This document shows positions 2,583-32,384 of a stretch of DNA of 64,000 nucleotides, piece after piece (within the stretch, counting starts at the first letter, position 1; each line of letters begins with the position of its first letter). A program made the position numbers and the translations under genes. A model generated the notes under the pieces. It did not search any database and was not told the DNA's origin. It saw nothing but the letters and a program-made list of their open reading frames with translations. Origin of the DNA: Candidatus Caldarchaeum subterraneum (GTDB taxonomy: Archaea; Thermoproteota; Nitrososphaeria_A; Caldarchaeales; Caldarchaeaceae); NCBI GenBank assembly GCA_937934305.1, contig CALHAG010000009.1:1-64000 (forward strand), read 5' to 3'.

Positions 2583-4240
2583 ATCCTCTGCACACTCTCC
2601 AGCTTCTCCAAAACATTTTGCGTGCCAATGTGGTAAACCTCTTTTACGATTCGCCAGACTGTTTCGAATTCTGTGTTTTTGCGACGGACAAGTAACTCGA
2701 GTATCTGGGCTCTGTCGAAGAGTTCTTGATAGATTCTATGTACTTCTCGCGGCGATACGCCGAGCATGGTTCTTATCTTGTTTTCGAGTAGGTAGCTGTT
2801 GCCCTCGCCTCGGAACTCGTGCTTGTCTGTGGAAGAGTCCCAGTTGAATAGCTCGATGTAGTCAAACCTCTGCGTCGTCGGGTCATAGCCAACTATTTCG
2901 TTGATGCTTAGGACCCGTCTCTCAACCTTCCCCGTGCTCGGGAGCCTCACAGCGCTCTGTATTAAAACGCAGTTTAGTATGTCGATGTATGTTTTCGGGA
3001 TGTTTATGGGGTCGCCTGTAAGCCTCTGGATAAGCTTCTCGACGCTGCCGGCGTGGAAGGTGGCGAGAACCGGGTGCCCGGTCTGCATGGCTTGGAAAGC
3101 GACGGATGCTTCAGCGCCTCTTATCTCGCCTACTATGATGTAGTTGGGCCTCTGCCGGAGAGCGGCTTTAAGGAGGTCGAACAACGTGATGTCGCCCTCT
3201 CCCTGCTCCCCTTGACGCGTAACCTCTCTAACCCAGTTTTCATGAGGCACGACTATTTCGGGCGTGTCCTCGATGCTGACGATTTTCGCGGAGGGGTTGA
3301 TGAAGACGCTTGCGGCTCTCAGGGCCGTGGTTTTACCCGAAGCCGTCTCTCCGCAGAACCATATACTCATGCCATGTTCAAGCATTATCCATAGATAGGC
3401 TGCTTCAAGGCTGCTCATGGTTCCCCAGCTTATCAAGTCGGCAATGCTCACAGGTTTCTCGGAGAATTTTCTTATGGTGAAGTTACTGCCGTGTCTGCTG
3501 ACATCGCTGCCGAAAACTATGTTTATTCTGCTGCCGTCTGGAAGAGATGCATCCACTATTGGTTTTCGAAAGTTGACGGCTCTACCTATTCTTTCAGAGA
3601 GTTTGACTACGAAGGTGTCAAGCTCCTCCTGGTCTGAGAAGGTTATGTTGGTCTCGCAGCTTCCGAAGATTTTGTGCTCCACGAATATGGGGCCGACGCC
3701 GTTGCATGAAACATCCTCGATATACTGGTCGCGGATGAATGGCTCAAGTGTTCCGAGGTAGACTTTGTCGAGGATTACGCTGTTCCGGATTATGTCAGCG
3801 GTTGTCTGATTGGCGGCGAGCTTCTCCACAATCCCTTTTCTGTAAATGGGCCTATAGTCAAAATCCTCGAGTGTATCATCTATTTCGAGAAACATGTCGA
3901 GAAGCTCGTTGAGTAGTTTTTCATGTTCTTCACGTGTGGTGTAGTCCATTTCGGGTGTGATGAGCCTTGCCAAGCCTTTCTCAACTATTTTGTTTATTTC
4001 GACGGGGGCCATCGTGAATGGGCTTATGACGTTGTAGGACGACCTTTCGCTTGGCCTCGACTCGACGTGTATGAATAATGGGTCTCCGACTGGGTAGATG
4101 AAGCTATAGCTGCGGAGGTTACGCATTTCTCGGCTTAGTTGCTCGACGTATGTCGCTGTTTTCCCCTGGAGCCTCAGCTCCTCGATATACATCCTGAGAT
4201 GAGGGTTTTCCATCAGCACTCTCGAGGGCACATTGCTCAT
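2579..4240 (-). CDS. arlI: Archaellum motor ATPase ArlI/FlaI (VirB11/PilT superfamily)
   Basis: Walker A FCGETASGKTTALRA; Asp box SIEDTPEIVVPHENWV; Walker B-like YIIVGEIRGAEA; HPVLATFHAGS His box. Confidence 0.92.
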   Translation of the reverse strand: MSNVPSRVLMENPHLRMYIEELRLQGKTATYVEQLSREMRNLRSYSFIYPVGDPLFIHVESRPSERSSYNVISPFTMAPVEINKIVEKGLARLITPEMDYTTREEHEKLLNELLDMFLEIDDTLEDFDYRPIYRKGIVEKLAANQTTADIIRNSVILDKVYLGTLEPFIRDQYIEDVSCNGVGPIFVEHKIFGSCETNITFSDQEELDTFVVKLSERIGRAVNFRKPIVDASLPDGSRINIVFGSDVSRHGSNFTIRKFSEKPVSIADLISWGTMSSLEAAYLWIMLEHGMSIWFCGETASGKTTALRAASVFINPSAKIVSIEDTPEIVVPHENWVREVTRQGEQGEGDITLFDLLKAALRQRPNYIIVGEIRGAEASVAFQAMQTGHPVLATFHAGSVEKLIQRLTGDPINIPKTYIDILNCVLIQSAVRLPSTGKVERRVLSINEIVGYDPTTQRFDYIELFNWDSSTDKHEFRGEGNSYLLENKIRTMLGVSPREVHRIYQELFDRAQILELLVRRKNTEFETVWRIVKEVYHIGTQNVLEKLESVQRI

Positions 4241-4245
4241 GGTGT

Positions 4246-4947
4246 CTACGCCTTGGCCTGCGAGAAAGGCAGCACCCTGATGCCGAAGACCTGGTCAACC
4301 TCGAACGCTATCGTTAACCCGCTTTTCTCAGCTCCCTTGAGCTTCATCACCTGCAGAACCCTGACTATTCTCTCCCCCATCTCCTTGACGCTGAGCACGA
4401 AGTGTACGTCGGAGATAGAGCGTAATCTGAGGAAGAGGTCTGTGTCAAGCGCATGTGTGTGAATGGTTAGGAATATGGTTTTCTCCTGTTCGTCTACGAT
4501 GTTTCGCAGGACTGTGAAGAAGTTGAGGATGTCTGTTGTAGAGGCGTTGGTGAGAAGGTAGGTCATCGAGTCTATGAAGAAGACGTTTTCTTTTGAGCGG
4601 CTTTGGATAAAGGATGTGACGAGACGGAGTAGCTTGGTGTATTGTTGTGGGGACCAGGTAAAGTTTTTGACATGCATTTCGCCGATTTTCAGCCTGCCTG
4701 TGATGATGAAGTAGGACGGGTTCCAGGAGAGGGATGCCATGCTCTCCCTAACCGCCTTCATGCTCCCCTCAGTGCTAAGCAGGTAGCAGTTGAAACCCGA
4801 TAGAAGAGCGCCATAGCAGTATTGTAGAGTGAGGACCGATTTTCCGCTGTCGTTCGGGCCTTCGACAAGGCATAAGGCAGGGGTCTTTATGTGGCCGATT
4901 TTACGGTCCAGTTCACTGTTAAACGCTCTTATGTATCCTTCCGTCAA
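4246..4947 (-). CDS. arlH: Archaellum accessory ATPase ArlH/FlaH (RecA/KaiC-like)
   Basis: Walker A-like EGPNDSGKSVLTLQY; FFIDSMTYLLT; adjacent to arlI. Confidence 0.85.
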   Translation of the reverse strand: MTEGYIRAFNSELDRKIGHIKTPALCLVEGPNDSGKSVLTLQYCYGALLSGFNCYLLSTEGSMKAVRESMASLSWNPSYFIITGRLKIGEMHVKNFTWSPQQYTKLLRLVTSFIQSRSKENVFFIDSMTYLLTNASTTDILNFFTVLRNIVDEQEKTIFLTIHTHALDTDLFLRLRSISDVHFVLSVKEMGERIVRVLQVMKLKGAEKSGLTIAFEVDQVFGIRVLPFSQAKA

Positions 4948-24856: not shown

Positions 24857-25255
24857 ATGTCGACGAGACCATCCTCCTACTGGCGTCTCCGCCCCTATCT
24901 CTACAGGCTTGAGGGAAACCGTTGCACACAATGCGGCCACTTTAACCCTCTCGCCCGAAAGATATGTAGAAAATGCGGCTCACGACGTCTCGAGCGAGAC
25001 AGGCTCGCCCACCGAGGTAAACTAAGACAATTTACTGTAATCTATCAGCCGCAGACAGGTTTTGAGAAAACTGTTCCATACGCGGTGGGATGGGTTGAGA
25101 TGTCTGATGGAACCCAGATAATGGGCCAGATTACAGACTGTGAACCATCGGAACTTTCAGTTGGCATGGATGTCGAAACGGTTGTCAGAAAAATACGTGT
25201 GGAAGGCGAGTCTAAGTTGATAGTTTACGGAGTAAAGTTTAGACCGGTGCTTTAG
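24857..25255 (+). CDS. DUF35 OB-fold acyl-CoA-associated zinc protein
   Basis: ATG at 24857 (track start 24812 overlaps thiolase); zinc ribbon CTQCGHFNPLARKICRKCGS; OB-fold YAVGWVEMSDGTQIMGQI. Confidence 0.88.
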   Translation: MSTRPSSYWRLRPYLYRLEGNRCTQCGHFNPLARKICRKCGSRRLERDRLAHRGKLRQFTVIYQPQTGFEKTVPYAVGWVEMSDGTQIMGQITDCEPSELSVGMDVETVVRKIRVEGESKLIVYGVKFRPVL

Positions 25256-26046
25256 CGGTTGGCGAGGCTTTTCCAGAGGAGAATCACGGCATACTCCCTT
25301 GGTATCGACTCTTGATGAGCTATTTTCTCAATCTCCGCCCTGGCCACTGCCTCGGCCCTCTGCCCATGTGAAAGAATGTATTTTTTCTTGATTTCTTCAA
25401 AGAGCTTGGCGGGCTCCTCTTTGTTAGTGGTTATGTCGGCTATGTTGCGTGGAAGGTCTGAAAGCTGTTTAACCATTTCCTCCACCATCTTCAGCCTGTT
25501 TCGTAGGCTTGCGAGCTTTTTCCGTAGCTCAGGTATCTTGGCCTCCAGCTCCTCTCTGATGCCCACGCCCTTATCAGAGCCCGAGTCCTTCTCCAGCTGC
25601 ATCGTGTTAAGCTCTATGCTTGACCAGATTAGCTCCTCCTCGACCTGCGCAAACTCCGAGCCTAAAGCCTCCTTCGCAGCTCTCAGCCTCTCCAAAACCT
25701 CTCCGCTTTTCTCCAGCAATGCGTTCCTTTTTTCAGCAAGCCTGCTCAATATGTTTCTCACCAACTGAGGCCTTAGTTCCTCCATCTTAATGCAGTAAAG
25801 CATGAAGTTACGGTCTAAACCGCGTAGGCGCTCGATTTCCCGCATCAGTTCGTCATACATCTTCAGGGCCTCGTCAAGCTCGTCGCCGACCGGCTGCTGT
25901 TGTACAGGCTCCTCGACAGGCTTCAAACTCACCTCTTTGACAGGTTGCTCCTCCTGTTGGGGTGTAGGGGGAACCACCTCTATGTCTGGAGAGGTTTCAG
26001 GCTTCTGCGGCGACGGCTTGATGCGGAGTACAATTTTCTTCGGCAA
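25252..26046 (-). CDS. Coiled-coil protein of unknown function, downstream of JAMM protease gene
   Basis: Pro/Gln-rich N-terminus, long coiled coil, C-terminal helical segment; same strand and 31 nt after the JAMM gene. Confidence 0.6.
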   Translation of the reverse strand: MPKKIVLRIKPSPQKPETSPDIEVVPPTPQQEEQPVKEVSLKPVEEPVQQQPVGDELDEALKMYDELMREIERLRGLDRNFMLYCIKMEELRPQLVRNILSRLAEKRNALLEKSGEVLERLRAAKEALGSEFAQVEEELIWSSIELNTMQLEKDSGSDKGVGIREELEAKIPELRKKLASLRNRLKMVEEMVKQLSDLPRNIADITTNKEEPAKLFEEIKKKYILSHGQRAEAVARAEIEKIAHQESIPREYAVILLWKSLANR

Positions 26047-26077: not shown

Positions 26078-26686
26078 TCATGCTCCAAATAGCTTTTTAG
26101 CTTTTCCCAGCAGCCCCTCCTGCTCATCTAACAAAGGCTTGTCCCTCGTCTTACCAGTGGACTCGCCGAAGATATGCATAAAGTCGAAGGTGCCTAATGC
26201 ATGGAGAGTGCTTTCAAGAAGTTTGGCCCGATGCACACCTATGCTCACAGGAAGGGAAACAACCTTCCCCTCTTTCGATATCTGGAAAACCTTGAACTTG
26301 AGAGACGAGATTCTACGTGTCTTAGCATACTCAACCGGGTCCACCACAAGCGCCACAGCCTTGCTAAACATGGCTTGGTATCTCTTCTGAGTGTCGATGT
26401 CAGTCGGCGAAAGAAAAACATCAAGCCCAGGATGCGAATGATACCATCCCACTATGTAGAGGTTCTTATCTGATTTGGAGAGTTCTTCTGCAACCCTTGC
26501 CATAACCATCTCGTCAAGCTGCACGTAAGCAGGTGTACCATACTGCTCACCCGTGACAGCGTCCCATATCTCGAGAACCTTCCCGGCCGATTTGCCGACC
26601 AGCAAGCCCGCCACCTCACGCTGAAGACTTGATGCAGCGTGTTTAACCACCTTCGCCAAGGCCAGCGGATAGATTCTTACACGCAT
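26078..26686 (-). CDS. JAMM/MPN+ metalloprotease, Rpn11-like deubiquitinase
   Basis: EVAGLLVGK...; JAMM motif WYHSHPGLDVFLSPTDIDTQ; divergent from Ubl-E2-E1 operon. Confidence 0.93.
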   Translation of the reverse strand: MRVRIYPLALAKVVKHAASSLQREVAGLLVGKSAGKVLEIWDAVTGEQYGTPAYVQLDEMVMARVAEELSKSDKNLYIVGWYHSHPGLDVFLSPTDIDTQKRYQAMFSKAVALVVDPVEYAKTRRISSLKFKVFQISKEGKVVSLPVSIGVHRAKLLESTLHALGTFDFMHIFGESTGKTRDKPLLDEQEGLLGKAKKLFGA

Positions 26687-26826: not shown

Positions 26827-27090
26827 ATGAAGATTAAGATTGTTCCCGCTGTCGGAGGAGGTTCACCCTTGGAGCTTGAGGTTGCTCCAAACGCCACCGT
26901 CGGAGCGGTTCGGACGAAGGTTTGCGCAATGAAAAAACTTCCACCCGACACCACCAGACTAACCTACAAGGGAAGAGCTCTCAAAGACACTGAAACTCTT
27001 GAGAGTCTCGGAGTTGCCGACGGAGACAAATTCGTACTCATCACTAGGACGGTGGGCGGATATGGAGAGCCAATACGTAGAGCTGCCTGA
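26827..27090 (+). CDS. Ubiquitin-like modifier precursor
   Basis: Beta-grasp pattern LELEVAPNATVGAVRTKVCAMKKLPPDTTRLTYKGRALKDTETLESLGVADGDKFVLITRTVGG then 9-residue tail YGEPIRRAA after diglycine. Confidence 0.95.
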   Translation: MKIKIVPAVGGGSPLELEVAPNATVGAVRTKVCAMKKLPPDTTRLTYKGRALKDTETLESLGVADGDKFVLITRTVGGYGEPIRRAA

Positions 27091-27568
27091 AAACGCGTGG
27101 TACAGGCGGCTGGCTCTCGAGTATGCTTTGATTCAGGAGAATGAGCCCACCTTCACACCTGTCGAGAACGACCTAACCCATTACGAAGGCGTCATAATCG
27201 GCTCAGGCGAATATGAGGGAGGCTTCTTCAGAGTAGAAATAATCATTCCAAGGTCTTATCCATATTTCCCTCCCGACGTTATCTGGCACACTCGGATATG
27301 GCATCCAAACTTCTCAGACAGCGTCCCCGCAAGAGTCTGTGAATCGATTTTCAAAGACCACTGGTCCCCCTCTCTCCGCATCGTGGCAGTTATAGAGTCT
27401 TTGAGAAACCTTTTGACAAACCCCAACCCCGAGGACCCGCTCAACCCCGTCGCGGCATTTGAGTACAAGAACAGGCCCGACCTATTCTACGCCCGTGTTA
27501 GACAATTTGTCGAAACATATGCTACGCCTGAGCAGGCTTTTGGAAAAAAACGTTGGAAGGGTTTGTAG
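27062..27568 (+). CDS. E2-like ubiquitin-conjugating enzyme
   Basis: ATG 27062, in frame with track ORF 26999; PRSYPYFPPDVIWHTRIWHPNFSDSVPARVCESIFKDHWSPSLRI with HPN motif and single Cys. Confidence 0.93.
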   Translation: MESQYVELPENAWYRRLALEYALIQENEPTFTPVENDLTHYEGVIIGSGEYEGGFFRVEIIIPRSYPYFPPDVIWHTRIWHPNFSDSVPARVCESIFKDHWSPSLRIVAVIESLRNLLTNPNPEDPLNPVAAFEYKNRPDLFYARVRQFVETYATPEQAFGKKRWKGL

Positions 27569-28752
27569 TCTTGGGTGAGGCTGACGCCCTGGCGCGGTAC
27601 GACCGTCAGCTACGGCTCGAGGGATGGGACCAGAACAGACTGCTGTCGGGACGGGTGATTATCGCAGGAGTTGGAGCGCTTGGATGCGAGGTTGCGAAAA
27701 ACCTTTCTCTAATGGGTGTTGGCGAGCTCCTCCTTATAGACAACGATTATGTCGAGCTTTCTAACCTCAGCCGACAGATGCTATACACCGACCAGGACAT
27801 AGGCAGGCCAAAAGCGTCAACTGCAGAGAAAAAAATATCCATGATGAACCCTCTTGTGAAAGTGAAGGGCCTACAAACAGATGTGCGGAAAATCCCGGAA
27901 GAAACCTTTGCTGAGGCAGATGTCATAGTCTCAGCTGTCGACAATTGGCCAACAAGAAGATGGATAAACTCGATGGCGGTGCATGTTGGAACACCGCTTG
28001 TCGACGTAGCTACCGACGGCTACTATGGAAATGTTCAAACCGTGATACCCAGGGTTACCAGCTGTCTGGAATGCCATGCAGAGGTCCTCATTCCCTCGGA
28101 CATACAGGCTTCGGAGTGCTCTCTACGCCGCCGCACCCCAAACGACCTCGTCAAAGACCTTAGTGAACGAGGCATATCAATAAACTTCTCCGACGCCGAG
28201 GCCCTCTTCCAACACAACATCAAAACAGTCTACGACATCAAGTTCGCTCCGCAGACAGTGTTGGAGCAGATGGACAAGACGCTTAGAGAACAGGTCATTC
28301 AGCTCCGTTCACTGCTTAACCCAAAGATGCCCGCTCTGCAGAGCATATCGGCAACAGTTTCAGGCCTTGCCGCGTTCGAAGTGGTTCGGATACTTCATAG
28401 GGGTTCTCTGGGCAGGACGTTGAACGGCATGATGGTTTTCGATGGACTGAAGGGAAGGCTTACGCGTGTAAAGCTGGAGAGAAACGTGAACTGCCACGTG
28501 TGCGGCTACAGCGAGGAAAAACCTATGCAGATAAATGTTGCACCAAACGAAACCGTAGCCGACCTGAGAGAGAGAATATCCAACCTACTAATGTTCCCCG
28601 ACACCCGTTTACAACACGGCTCCAAACTATTGGAAGACCAAACGGAGATTGCATCAGCAGGTATAGCTGACGGGGACATACTTTATATCCATTCAAGCAG
28701 AAGAGCAACACCGGTGGCTGTGAAGGTGAAGCTGGTTGAGGCTGGTGATTAG
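27553..28752 (+). CDS. E1-like ubiquitin-activating enzyme with C-terminal beta-grasp domain
   Basis: RYDRQLRLEGWDQNRLLSGRVIIAGVGALGCEVAKNLSLMGVGELLLIDNDYVELSNLSRQML; zinc CxxC pairs CLEC and CHVC; candidate catalytic Cys in ASECSLRRRTPN; C-terminal MQINVAPNETVADLRERISNLLM... Start may be TTG 27553 or TTG 27571. Confidence 0.95.
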   Translation: MEGFVVLGEADALARYDRQLRLEGWDQNRLLSGRVIIAGVGALGCEVAKNLSLMGVGELLLIDNDYVELSNLSRQMLYTDQDIGRPKASTAEKKISMMNPLVKVKGLQTDVRKIPEETFAEADVIVSAVDNWPTRRWINSMAVHVGTPLVDVATDGYYGNVQTVIPRVTSCLECHAEVLIPSDIQASECSLRRRTPNDLVKDLSERGISINFSDAEALFQHNIKTVYDIKFAPQTVLEQMDKTLREQVIQLRSLLNPKMPALQSISATVSGLAAFEVVRILHRGSLGRTLNGMMVFDGLKGRLTRVKLERNVNCHVCGYSEEKPMQINVAPNETVADLRERISNLLMFPDTRLQHGSKLLEDQTEIASAGIADGDILYIHSSRRATPVAVKVKLVEAGD

Positions 28753-28963
28753 AGAGGTTAACGCAGGGTTTTGGAACCCTTTCGAGGAGCCGAAGCCAAA
28801 GCCTAAGCAGGAGAACTGTGTAATATGTGGACTGGAGATGGGGAATGAAAAAACATATTCATGCCCTCACTGTGGAGCGGTAGGTCATATGTCGTGTTTT
28901 GATGACTGGCTGGTGGTGAAGCAGACGTGCCCGCTTTGCCGAAGGCCGCTGGTAGAGATGTGA
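28736..28963 (+). CDS. Small RING-like zinc finger protein (candidate E3)
   Basis: CVICGLEMGNEKTYSCPHCGAVGHMSCFDDWLVVKQTCPLC; overlaps E1 3' end. Confidence 0.9.
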   Translation: MRLVIREVNAGFWNPFEEPKPKPKQENCVICGLEMGNEKTYSCPHCGAVGHMSCFDDWLVVKQTCPLCRRPLVEM

Positions 28964-30231: not shown

Positions 30232-30924
30232 ATGGTTGTGTCTGAGAGACGCTTGCTTGTTCGGTTTTTTCAGATAGGCTCGGTGCTGGCTTTGGCGGGG
30301 AGCATACATGTGCTGACCCTCCTACTTCCATGGTACACCGTCAGGGCTGACAATGTCTCAACCTCTGTTTTGAGCGGCTACCTGCTGCCGGAGACATTAT
30401 CACTCTCGGTTGCTGGAGGGGTTTTAGCAGGTTTGTCGCTGTTGGCGACATCTTTTAGCCAGCGCCCCATGTCTGTGAGAACCGTGCTAGTTGTTTTCTC
30501 GCTTATAGGAGGAGTACTGGCTATGGTTTCTCCGCTCTATCTAGGGTTTGTCAGGGTTCCTGCTCTGAACGTGTCTGGTGAGCCGGGTATAGGGTTCTTC
30601 GTCGCTCTTTTCTCTGCCATAGTCATCCTCGCTCTAGGAGGAGTGGCTCTTCTGACACGGCCGCGTGTGGTCGAGATTCCGTATCAGAGCTATGGTGGAG
30701 TGAGCGGGGCCACAGTCTCGTCAACACAGCCTATGGAGACGACATCTTTCGAAGTTGTTGGAGAAGTTGAGGAAGGAGTTGTCTGCCCCATCTGCTATAC
30801 TTCCGTGGAGGCTGAAAACGCTGTGAGATGCTCCTCATGCGGTGTCATTTTTCACTCGGGATGCCTTGACGCATATGTAAACATAAACGGTACTTGTCCA
30901 AACTGTGGAAGAGCCGTTGTCTAG
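30232..30924 (+). CDS. Four-TM membrane protein with C-terminal RING-like zinc domain
   Basis: ATG 30232 supported by TATA-like ttttataagg ~24-33 nt upstream; four hydrophobic helices; CPICYTSVEAENAVRCSSCGVIFHSGCLDAYVNINGTCPNC. Confidence 0.8.
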   Translation: MVVSERRLLVRFFQIGSVLALAGSIHVLTLLLPWYTVRADNVSTSVLSGYLLPETLSLSVAGGVLAGLSLLATSFSQRPMSVRTVLVVFSLIGGVLAMVSPLYLGFVRVPALNVSGEPGIGFFVALFSAIVILALGGVALLTRPRVVEIPYQSYGGVSGATVSSTQPMETTSFEVVGEVEEGVVCPICYTSVEAENAVRCSSCGVIFHSGCLDAYVNINGTCPNCGRAVV

Positions 30925-30935
30925 CGTGAGCCTTC

Positions 30936-32384
30936 ATGGGTCTCGAGGAAATCGTTAAACTCGGTCTTGAAAGGGGTTTTTTCTTTCCGTCGGCCGAGAT
31001 TTACTCCGGCTCTCCGGCGGGTTTCTGGGAGTATGGACATCTCGGAGCACTACTCAAACGCAAGTTCATAGACGCTTGGCATCGCCTAATGGTGCGAAGA
31101 GATGAGATGCTTCTCGTCGACGGGTCGCAGATTCTCCCCAAACCCGTTTTCATCGCATCTGGTCATCTAGCCACATTCGCAGACCCCATAACACGCTGCA
31201 AATCATGCAAGTCGGTGTACAGAATCGATAGATTGCTGGAGGAGAAGCTTGGTATAAAGGTTCCAGAAAGAACTCCGCCCGAGCAGATTGACGCGATTAT
31301 TGCTGAGCATGGTTTCCGCTGCCCTGCCTGCGGGGGAGAGCTGGACAAGGTATCCCTGTTCAACATGATGTTCGGTGTTTCTCTGGGAGCGTCCGGCGAC
31401 GAAGGATATCTCAGGCCCGAGACATGTCAAAACATCTTCATAGATTTTCCACGTGTTTACAAGATTTCGCGAAGAAAGCTGCCGCTCCCACTCGCACAGG
31501 TGGGGAAAAGCTTCCGTAACGAGATATCTCCTCGCCAATCTCTTATCAGGCTTCGGGAGTTTACACAGGCAGAGATAGAGGTTTTCTTCAACCCACGCAC
31601 AGCCAACGAATTCGAGAAGGCCAAAACAGTTGCTGACAAAGAGTTAAACATGTGGATGGGAGACAGGGTTGAAAAAATCACATGCGAAAGAGCTTTTGAG
31701 AAAGGTCTGGTTTCGAGCTGGCTCGTCGCATATTATCTCTGGCTTGTGCAGGACTTCTACTTCCGCCTAGGCATAAACCCGGACAAGCTAAGGTTTAGGA
31801 GGCTCGGTGATGATGAGAAGGCTTTCTACGCCGCCGAGGCCTGGGACTTGGAGGTCCTTACTTCGACTGGGTGGATGGAGCTTGTAGCCTGTAACAACCG
31901 AACCGACTATGACCTCGGTGGACATCAGAGGATTAGCGGAGTCGACCTCAGGATAACGGAGGATGGCGAGACGTTTCTGCCGCATGTTTTCGAGCTTTCG
32001 ATGGGCGTTGACAGAAGCCTTCTAGCTCTTCTCGAACACGGCTATGTCCAAGAAAATGGTAGAAGTGTTCTCCGTCTCCACCCAGCCCTCGCTCCGTACA
32101 CACTCGCGGTTTTCCCCCTGCTTGACAGGCCTGAGCTAACTCAGGTCGCCCAACGGCTTTACAGTATGCTTCAGCTTGATTTTGACACATTCTATGACGA
32201 GAAGGGAAGCATAGGCAGAAGATACAGGAGACAGGATGAGATAGGCACACCCTTCTGCATAACAGTAGATTATCAAACCTTGGAGGATAACACGGTGACC
32301 GTAAGAGACCGAGACACCATGAAACAGGAACGTGTAAGCATAGATGTGCTCAAGAGCTTCATATCGGATAAGCTCGTGATATAA
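30936..32384 (+). CDS. glyS: Glycyl-tRNA synthetase (class II, archaeal/eukaryotic type)
   Basis: GFFFPSAEIYSGSPAGFWEYGHLGALLKRK; RPETCQNIFIDF; QVGKSFRNEISPRQSLIRLREFTQAEIE; ELSMGVDRSLLALL. Confidence 0.95.
   Translation: MGLEEIVKLGLERGFFFPSAEIYSGSPAGFWEYGHLGALLKRKFIDAWHRLMVRRDEMLLVDGSQILPKPVFIASGHLATFADPITRCKSCKSVYRIDRLLEEKLGIKVPERTPPEQIDAIIAEHGFRCPACGGELDKVSLFNMMFGVSLGASGDEGYLRPETCQNIFIDFPRVYKISRRKLPLPLAQVGKSFRNEISPRQSLIRLREFTQAEIEVFFNPRTANEFEKAKTVADKELNMWMGDRVEKITCERAFEKGLVSSWLVAYYLWLVQDFYFRLGINPDKLRFRRLGDDEKAFYAAEAWDLEVLTSTGWMELVACNNRTDYDLGGHQRISGVDLRITEDGETFLPHVFELSMGVDRSLLALLEHGYVQENGRSVLRLHPALAPYTLAVFPLLDRPELTQVAQRLYSMLQLDFDTFYDEKGSIGRRYRRQDEIGTPFCITVDYQTLEDNTVTVRDRDTMKQERVSIDVLKSFISDKLVI

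Follow-up and report, generated by a model that had tools for sequence, protein, structure and literature searches.

A membrane-anchored RING protein beside the ubiquitin operon of the Caldarchaeales, probably an E3 ligase or the E2-docking half of one

Membrane-anchored E3 ligases underlie membrane protein quality control and sorting in eukaryotic cells. Among them, HRD1/synoviolin and gp78/AMFR join an N-terminal multi-transmembrane (TM) region to a cytosolic C-terminal RING, and both have more TM helices than the four of the archaeal protein described here. A well-known ubiquitin operon of archaea is that of Caldiarchaeum, which comprises Rpn11 on the minus strand, a ubiquitin-like modifier (Ubl), E2, E1, and a small soluble RING finger protein, the operon RING E3 (sRFP). 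The reconstitution of the cascade in 2017 used sRFP as its only RING protein; in this system the sRFP mutation I30Q abolishes activity, while W58A and R69A impair it (PMC5654768). A 2018 paper, Fuchs et al., mentions a "second E3 protein" beside the operon, citing Nunoura 2011 (PMC6043591). As C. subterraneum has just two RING proteins by that paper's count, both called "small E3 RING finger proteins," the second E3 is almost certainly the gene analyzed here, which we term mRING. Nowhere does that paper use the word "membrane," and no conservation or residue analysis was found. The membrane anchor of mRING, its conservation across the order, and the complementarity of its residues with those of sRFP in one family (f2) appear to be unreported in the literature covered, outside of which Nunoura 2011 falls.

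The window, that is, the entire 64 kb stretch of DNA that was analyzed, carries this well-known operon together with mRING (Table 1). The published residue numbers for sRFP (I30, W58, R69) and for E2 (P67, Y68, P103, S104) match the window proteins exactly, which points to C. subterraneum itself or a very near relative as the source. The mRING gene starts 1.27 kb beyond the sRFP stop codon, in agreement with the distance of about 1.3 kb given in the initial annotation, and lies outside the operon proper, with two coiled-coil genes, the first on the plus and the second on the minus strand, separating it from sRFP. On its other side, GlyRS begins only 11 bases downstream, a gap so short that mRING and GlyRS perhaps form one transcript in this genome.

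Table 1. Coordinates of mRING, its domains, and the neighboring genes in the window
Feature	Position	Strand	Details or basis
mRING, four-TM protein with C-terminal RING, 230 aa	30232..30924	+	ATG at 30232, stop at 30922-30924; ORF, Pfam, hydropathy, AlphaFold
Four-TM domain of mRING, residues about 14-141	30271..30654	+	hydropathy, AF2 model
RING of mRING	30784..30906	+	ligands C185 C188 C200 C203 H208 C211 C222 C225
sRFP, operon RING E3, 75 aa	28736..28963	+
Predicted coiled-coil protein, 103 aa	28965..29276	+	adjoins sRFP in most of the order
Predicted coiled-coil protein, 283 aa	29271..30122	-	divergent from mRING; beside mRING in most genomes
Ubiquitin-like modifier precursor (Ubl)	26827..27090	+
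E2	27053..27568	+	RING-facing residues: loop 4 P67-Y68 and loop 7 P103-S104
E1 with C-terminal ubiquitin-like domain	27553..28752	+
Rpn11/JAMM deubiquitinase	26078..26686	-
Glycyl-tRNA synthetase (GlyRS)	30936..32384	+	by inspection of sequence

The finger of mRING can be assigned to the RING class on solid grounds of sequence comparison. Its best Pfam match is zf-RING_2 (E=1.7e-9, 38.2 bits against a cut-off of 27.3), which all 28 mRING orthologs also match, whereas PHD (6e-4) and zinc ribbons score far below. A profile of the orthologs run against the PDB retrieves E3 ligases, namely, Arkadia (8e-12), ZNRF3, RNF38, RNF13, gp78/AMFR, and HRD1. The eight zinc ligands are invariant in the 28 aligned rows, and their order is C4HC3, with C-x2-C-x4-H-x2-C in every row as in sRFP, rather than that of a textbook RING-H2 or RING-HC; none of the rows has the C3H2C3 order that defines the RING-H2 subclass. 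The C4HC3 order is shared with RINGv and PHD fingers, from which mRING is set apart by its RING-type helix Trp position, CPxC, and linchpin position, in addition to its much higher zf-RING_2 score. As reported, the window proteins mRING and sRFP both exhibit the spacing C-x2-C-x11-C-x2-C-x4-H-x2-C-x10-C-x2-C exactly, and the corresponding DNA pattern occurs only at these two places in the 64 kb, against 0.00 expected from 100 shuffles. This identity is nevertheless confined to the Caldiarchaeum lineage: over the order as a whole, 27 of 28 mRING rows have a spacing of 11/10, whereas 12/10 prevails in sRFP (22 of 28 distinct motifs). Since the two families differ over most of the order, the shared spacing constitutes no evidence of special pairing, and a recent duplication, which it might suggest, was rejected on the same ground. 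The RING domain is in any event too short for phylogeny (PMC4327156). While the two proteins share the RING class and C4HC3 layout, sRFP is soluble and bears an N-terminal G-x-W motif, and mRING has four TM helices.

The four TM helices predicted earlier are recovered both as hydrophobic peaks (KD19 means of 1.89, 1.66, 2.24, and 2.73 at residues 24, 64, 93, and 132) and as AlphaFold helices (residues 5-29, 53-75, 79-111, and 120-141). The model (mean pLDDT 81, pTM 0.55) further places strands on the extracellular side, a disordered linker at residues 150-167, and a confident RING at the C-terminus. Lysine and arginine are abundant in loop 2 (mean 2.7) and scarce in loop 1 (mean 0.5), a positive-inside pattern that supports an N-in/C-in topology with a cytosolic RING. 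The TM domain contains the invariant residues H26, W34, G49, S59, G67, S100, and G121, with R11 just before it, and its best conserved segment is TM1 (H26, W34), whose conservation goes beyond the need of a bare anchor. Judged by a dN/dS of 0.06 against the closest relative, and a dN of 0.009 in the RING, mRING is under strong purifying selection. In a Foldseek search with the modeled TM part, every one of the top 50 PDB matches is a chain of a claudin or an AMPA-receptor TARP, at a probability of 0.99-1.00, a best E of 1.7e-3, and a TM-score of about 0.4 across the full query; besides the four-TM fold, the likeness takes in beta strands on the extracellular side and an invariant Trp following TM1. 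Neither mRING nor its orthologs yield a Pfam claudin match. The model thus suggests a claudin-like fold, a match that falls short of demonstrating homology, in a protein that differs from the claudin/TARP superfamily in being archaeal and in carrying a RING. The comparison with eukaryotic ER-membrane RING ligases, drawn in the initial annotation, therefore holds for the overall layout of an N-terminal TM bundle and a cytosolic C-terminal RING, but not for the TM fold. No HRD1 match occurs in the Foldseek top 50, and mRING lacks CUE or other accessory domains. A kinship with ERAD ligases of the HRD1/gp78 type, which would call for a homologous TM domain and ERAD partners, was rejected on the TM domain.

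The distribution of mRING was surveyed in 398 genomes of the phylum, 44 of them in the order Caldarchaeales and 354 outside it. Full-length mRING is present in 41 of the 44 and E2 in all 44, in line with the co-occurrence with the Ubl system that the initial annotation had proposed to check; far from being common in archaea that lack Ubl and E2, full-length mRING was found in 0 of the 354 genomes outside the order. The three order genomes lacking mRING involve contig ends or incomplete assemblies: a contig edge lies 240 bases from the start of GlyRS in G029, where the 745 bases beside the coiled-coil gene hold no mRING, GlyRS is cut by the contig start in G042, and it was not found in G003, so that loss of mRING cannot be concluded for any of them. 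E2 also occurs in seven genomes outside the order, none of which has mRING, and no RING motif lies near E2 in the five of these neighborhoods that were inspected. Each order genome normally has exactly two zf-RING_2 matches, sRFP and mRING; outside the order such matches are found in 7 of 353 phylum genomes, none of them E2 carriers, and in none of 14 control genomes. A scan of the contigs of 84,980 species yielded 14 mRING loci, all full-length-type matches, whose titles name Geocrenenecus, Calditenuaceae, HR02, and unresolved archaeal MAGs. The order thus retains mRING alongside E1, E2, Ubl, Rpn11, and sRFP, although this co-occurrence is weak evidence by itself because it reflects the ancestry of one clade and not many independent events.

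Gene order within the Caldarchaeales is similarly conserved. Families f1, f3, and f4 keep the arrangement Rpn11, Ubl-E2-E1-sRFP-coiled coil, coiled coil (minus strand), mRING-GlyRS. In most of f2, Ubl-E2-E1 (and Rpn11) are found elsewhere, and mRING is still grouped with sRFP and both coiled-coil genes; genus g8 of this family has a third, separate locus, made up of sRFP and the coiled-coil genes. The most constant neighbor of mRING is GlyRS, which adjoins it in essentially all contigs reaching that point, more constantly than the Ubl genes do.

The published sRFP mutants provide a guide to the residues with which mRING might engage E2. By alignment, its E2-docking positions are I187 and Y215, the latter a Trp in other genera, and its linchpin position is G226, just after the RING stretch with an Arg adjacent. 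Among 40 mRING orthologs scored, the loop-1 position is Ile in 39 and Leu in one, the helix position is Trp in 37 and Tyr in three (all of the Caldiarchaeum genus), and the linchpin is Lys or Arg in 22, Gly in 14, and Gln or Asn in four. All mRINGs of f4 (20/20) and those of genus g2 hold the basic linchpin, which is absent in the Caldiarchaeum genus, f2, and f3. In the window protein, two of the three residues important in sRFP are accordingly replaced (W58 by Tyr, linchpin R69 by Gly). The sRFPs of f1, f3, and f4 have Ile or Val and Trp throughout, and Lys or Arg at the linchpin except in genus g13. A reciprocal pattern is seen in f2, where sRFP has Leu for Trp at the W58 equivalent in 10 of 10 genomes (genes L048-L057, L080, L081, and L091) and replaces the I30 equivalent by Ala, Ser, or, in one case, Val, yet retains the linchpin Arg or Lys, while mRING keeps both Ile and Trp. 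The f2 E2 retains its RING-facing loop-4 aromatic (FPF/FPY) and, except in one genome (G022, WYA), its loop-7 Pro. By these residues, sRFP, the archaeal RING E3 of the textbooks, may not dock E2 in f2, and mRING is the RING equipped to dock E2 there, if f2 still uses a RING. The pattern gains weight from the I30Q, W58A, and R69A phenotypes; it represents one evolutionary event, subsequently seen in four genera. Separately, family f12, which has no E2 at E<=1, encodes a 242-aa membrane, PH-like-looking protein ending in a RING (L079:7808-8536, minus strand) that carries Ile and Trp, so these two residues alone are no proof of E2 use.

Considering these data together, we regard it as likely that mRING serves the ubiquitin system of the Caldarchaeales as a plasma-membrane RING E3, or else as the half that docks E2 in a two-RING E3 formed with sRFP. 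Its RING would capture E2~Ubl from the operon cascade by means of I187 and the aromatic residue of the helix, and the tether, a linker of about 35 residues that carries the RING, would restrict transfer to substrates that are membrane proteins or are bound to the membrane. With a basic linchpin, as in f4 and g2, mRING could activate E2~Ubl alone; in the Caldiarchaeum genus, f2, and f3 it would have to be assisted, in the simplest case by sRFP, whose linchpin is kept. The membrane-localised E3-like partner originally proposed is thus upheld in part, by restriction to the order and by the docking residues conserved in orthologs, but with its Tyr and Gly the window mRING may be weak or inactive alone. 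That the Caldarchaeales possess a split two-RING E3, in which mRING docks E2 and sRFP supplies the activating linchpin, can be put forward only tentatively; the arrangement would be forced in f2, where the docking residues are gone from sRFP and mRING is without a linchpin. If true, it would represent a heteromeric archaeal membrane E3, together with the two coiled-coil proteins, analogous to RING1B-BMI1 or BRCA1-BARD1.

Two further explanations were weighed. That mRING functions outside ubiquitylation, as a four-TM protein with a C4HC3 treble clef engaging a different partner in the manner of PHD, C1, or prokaryotic RING-like fingers, possibly linked to GlyRS, would account for the ligand order, the linchpin missing from 18 of 40 mRINGs, the constant GlyRS adjacency, and the membrane-type RING of the E2-less f12 genomes. 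We consider it unlikely, however, given a sequence closest to E3 RINGs, conserved Ile, Trp, and CPxC that are features of RING and not PHD fingers, and confinement to an order in which every genome carries the E1/E2/Ubl cascade, with hardly any RINGs otherwise. Quite improbable is a role for mRING as a tether at the membrane, or as a regulatory pseudo-E3, in which it docks E2 (or sRFP) without activating transfer and limits or positions the soluble E3: the mRINGs of f4 (20/20) and g2, linchpin included, have a complete E3 set, even though such a role would suit the Caldiarchaeum genus, f2, and f3, where docking residues are kept and the linchpin is not, as well as the basic linchpin held by the f2 sRFP.

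On the preferred reading of mRING as a membrane E3, or a docking half of one, the Caldarchaeales probably tag proteins at the membrane much as eukaryotic cells do. An archaeal membrane RING acting with the minimal reconstituted E1/E2/Ub cascade would, if true, mean that spatially confined ubiquitylation did not have to originate together with eukaryotic endomembranes. In combination, mRING and that cascade offer a concrete in vitro system, for which f2 predicts the RING that must dock E2.

Several other elements merit mention in their own right. The two coiled-coil proteins (Table 1) stay with sRFP and mRING where Ubl-E2-E1 has moved, and are candidate subunits or substrate adaptors. The G-x-W motif of sRFP (window 28736-28810), which precedes its RING and is invariant in every family aligned, is a candidate partner-binding site. 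At a second locus in genus g8, Ubl-like (..VPRPVGGAM..) and E2-like domains are fused in one ORF (L078:5232-6050, plus strand; L116 about 3597-4322), which adjoins a JAB protease in both L078 and L116, and also E1 in L116. Finally, a further coiled-coil protein, predicted at window 25252-26046 on the minus strand, adjoins Rpn11 and is kept beside it in several families.
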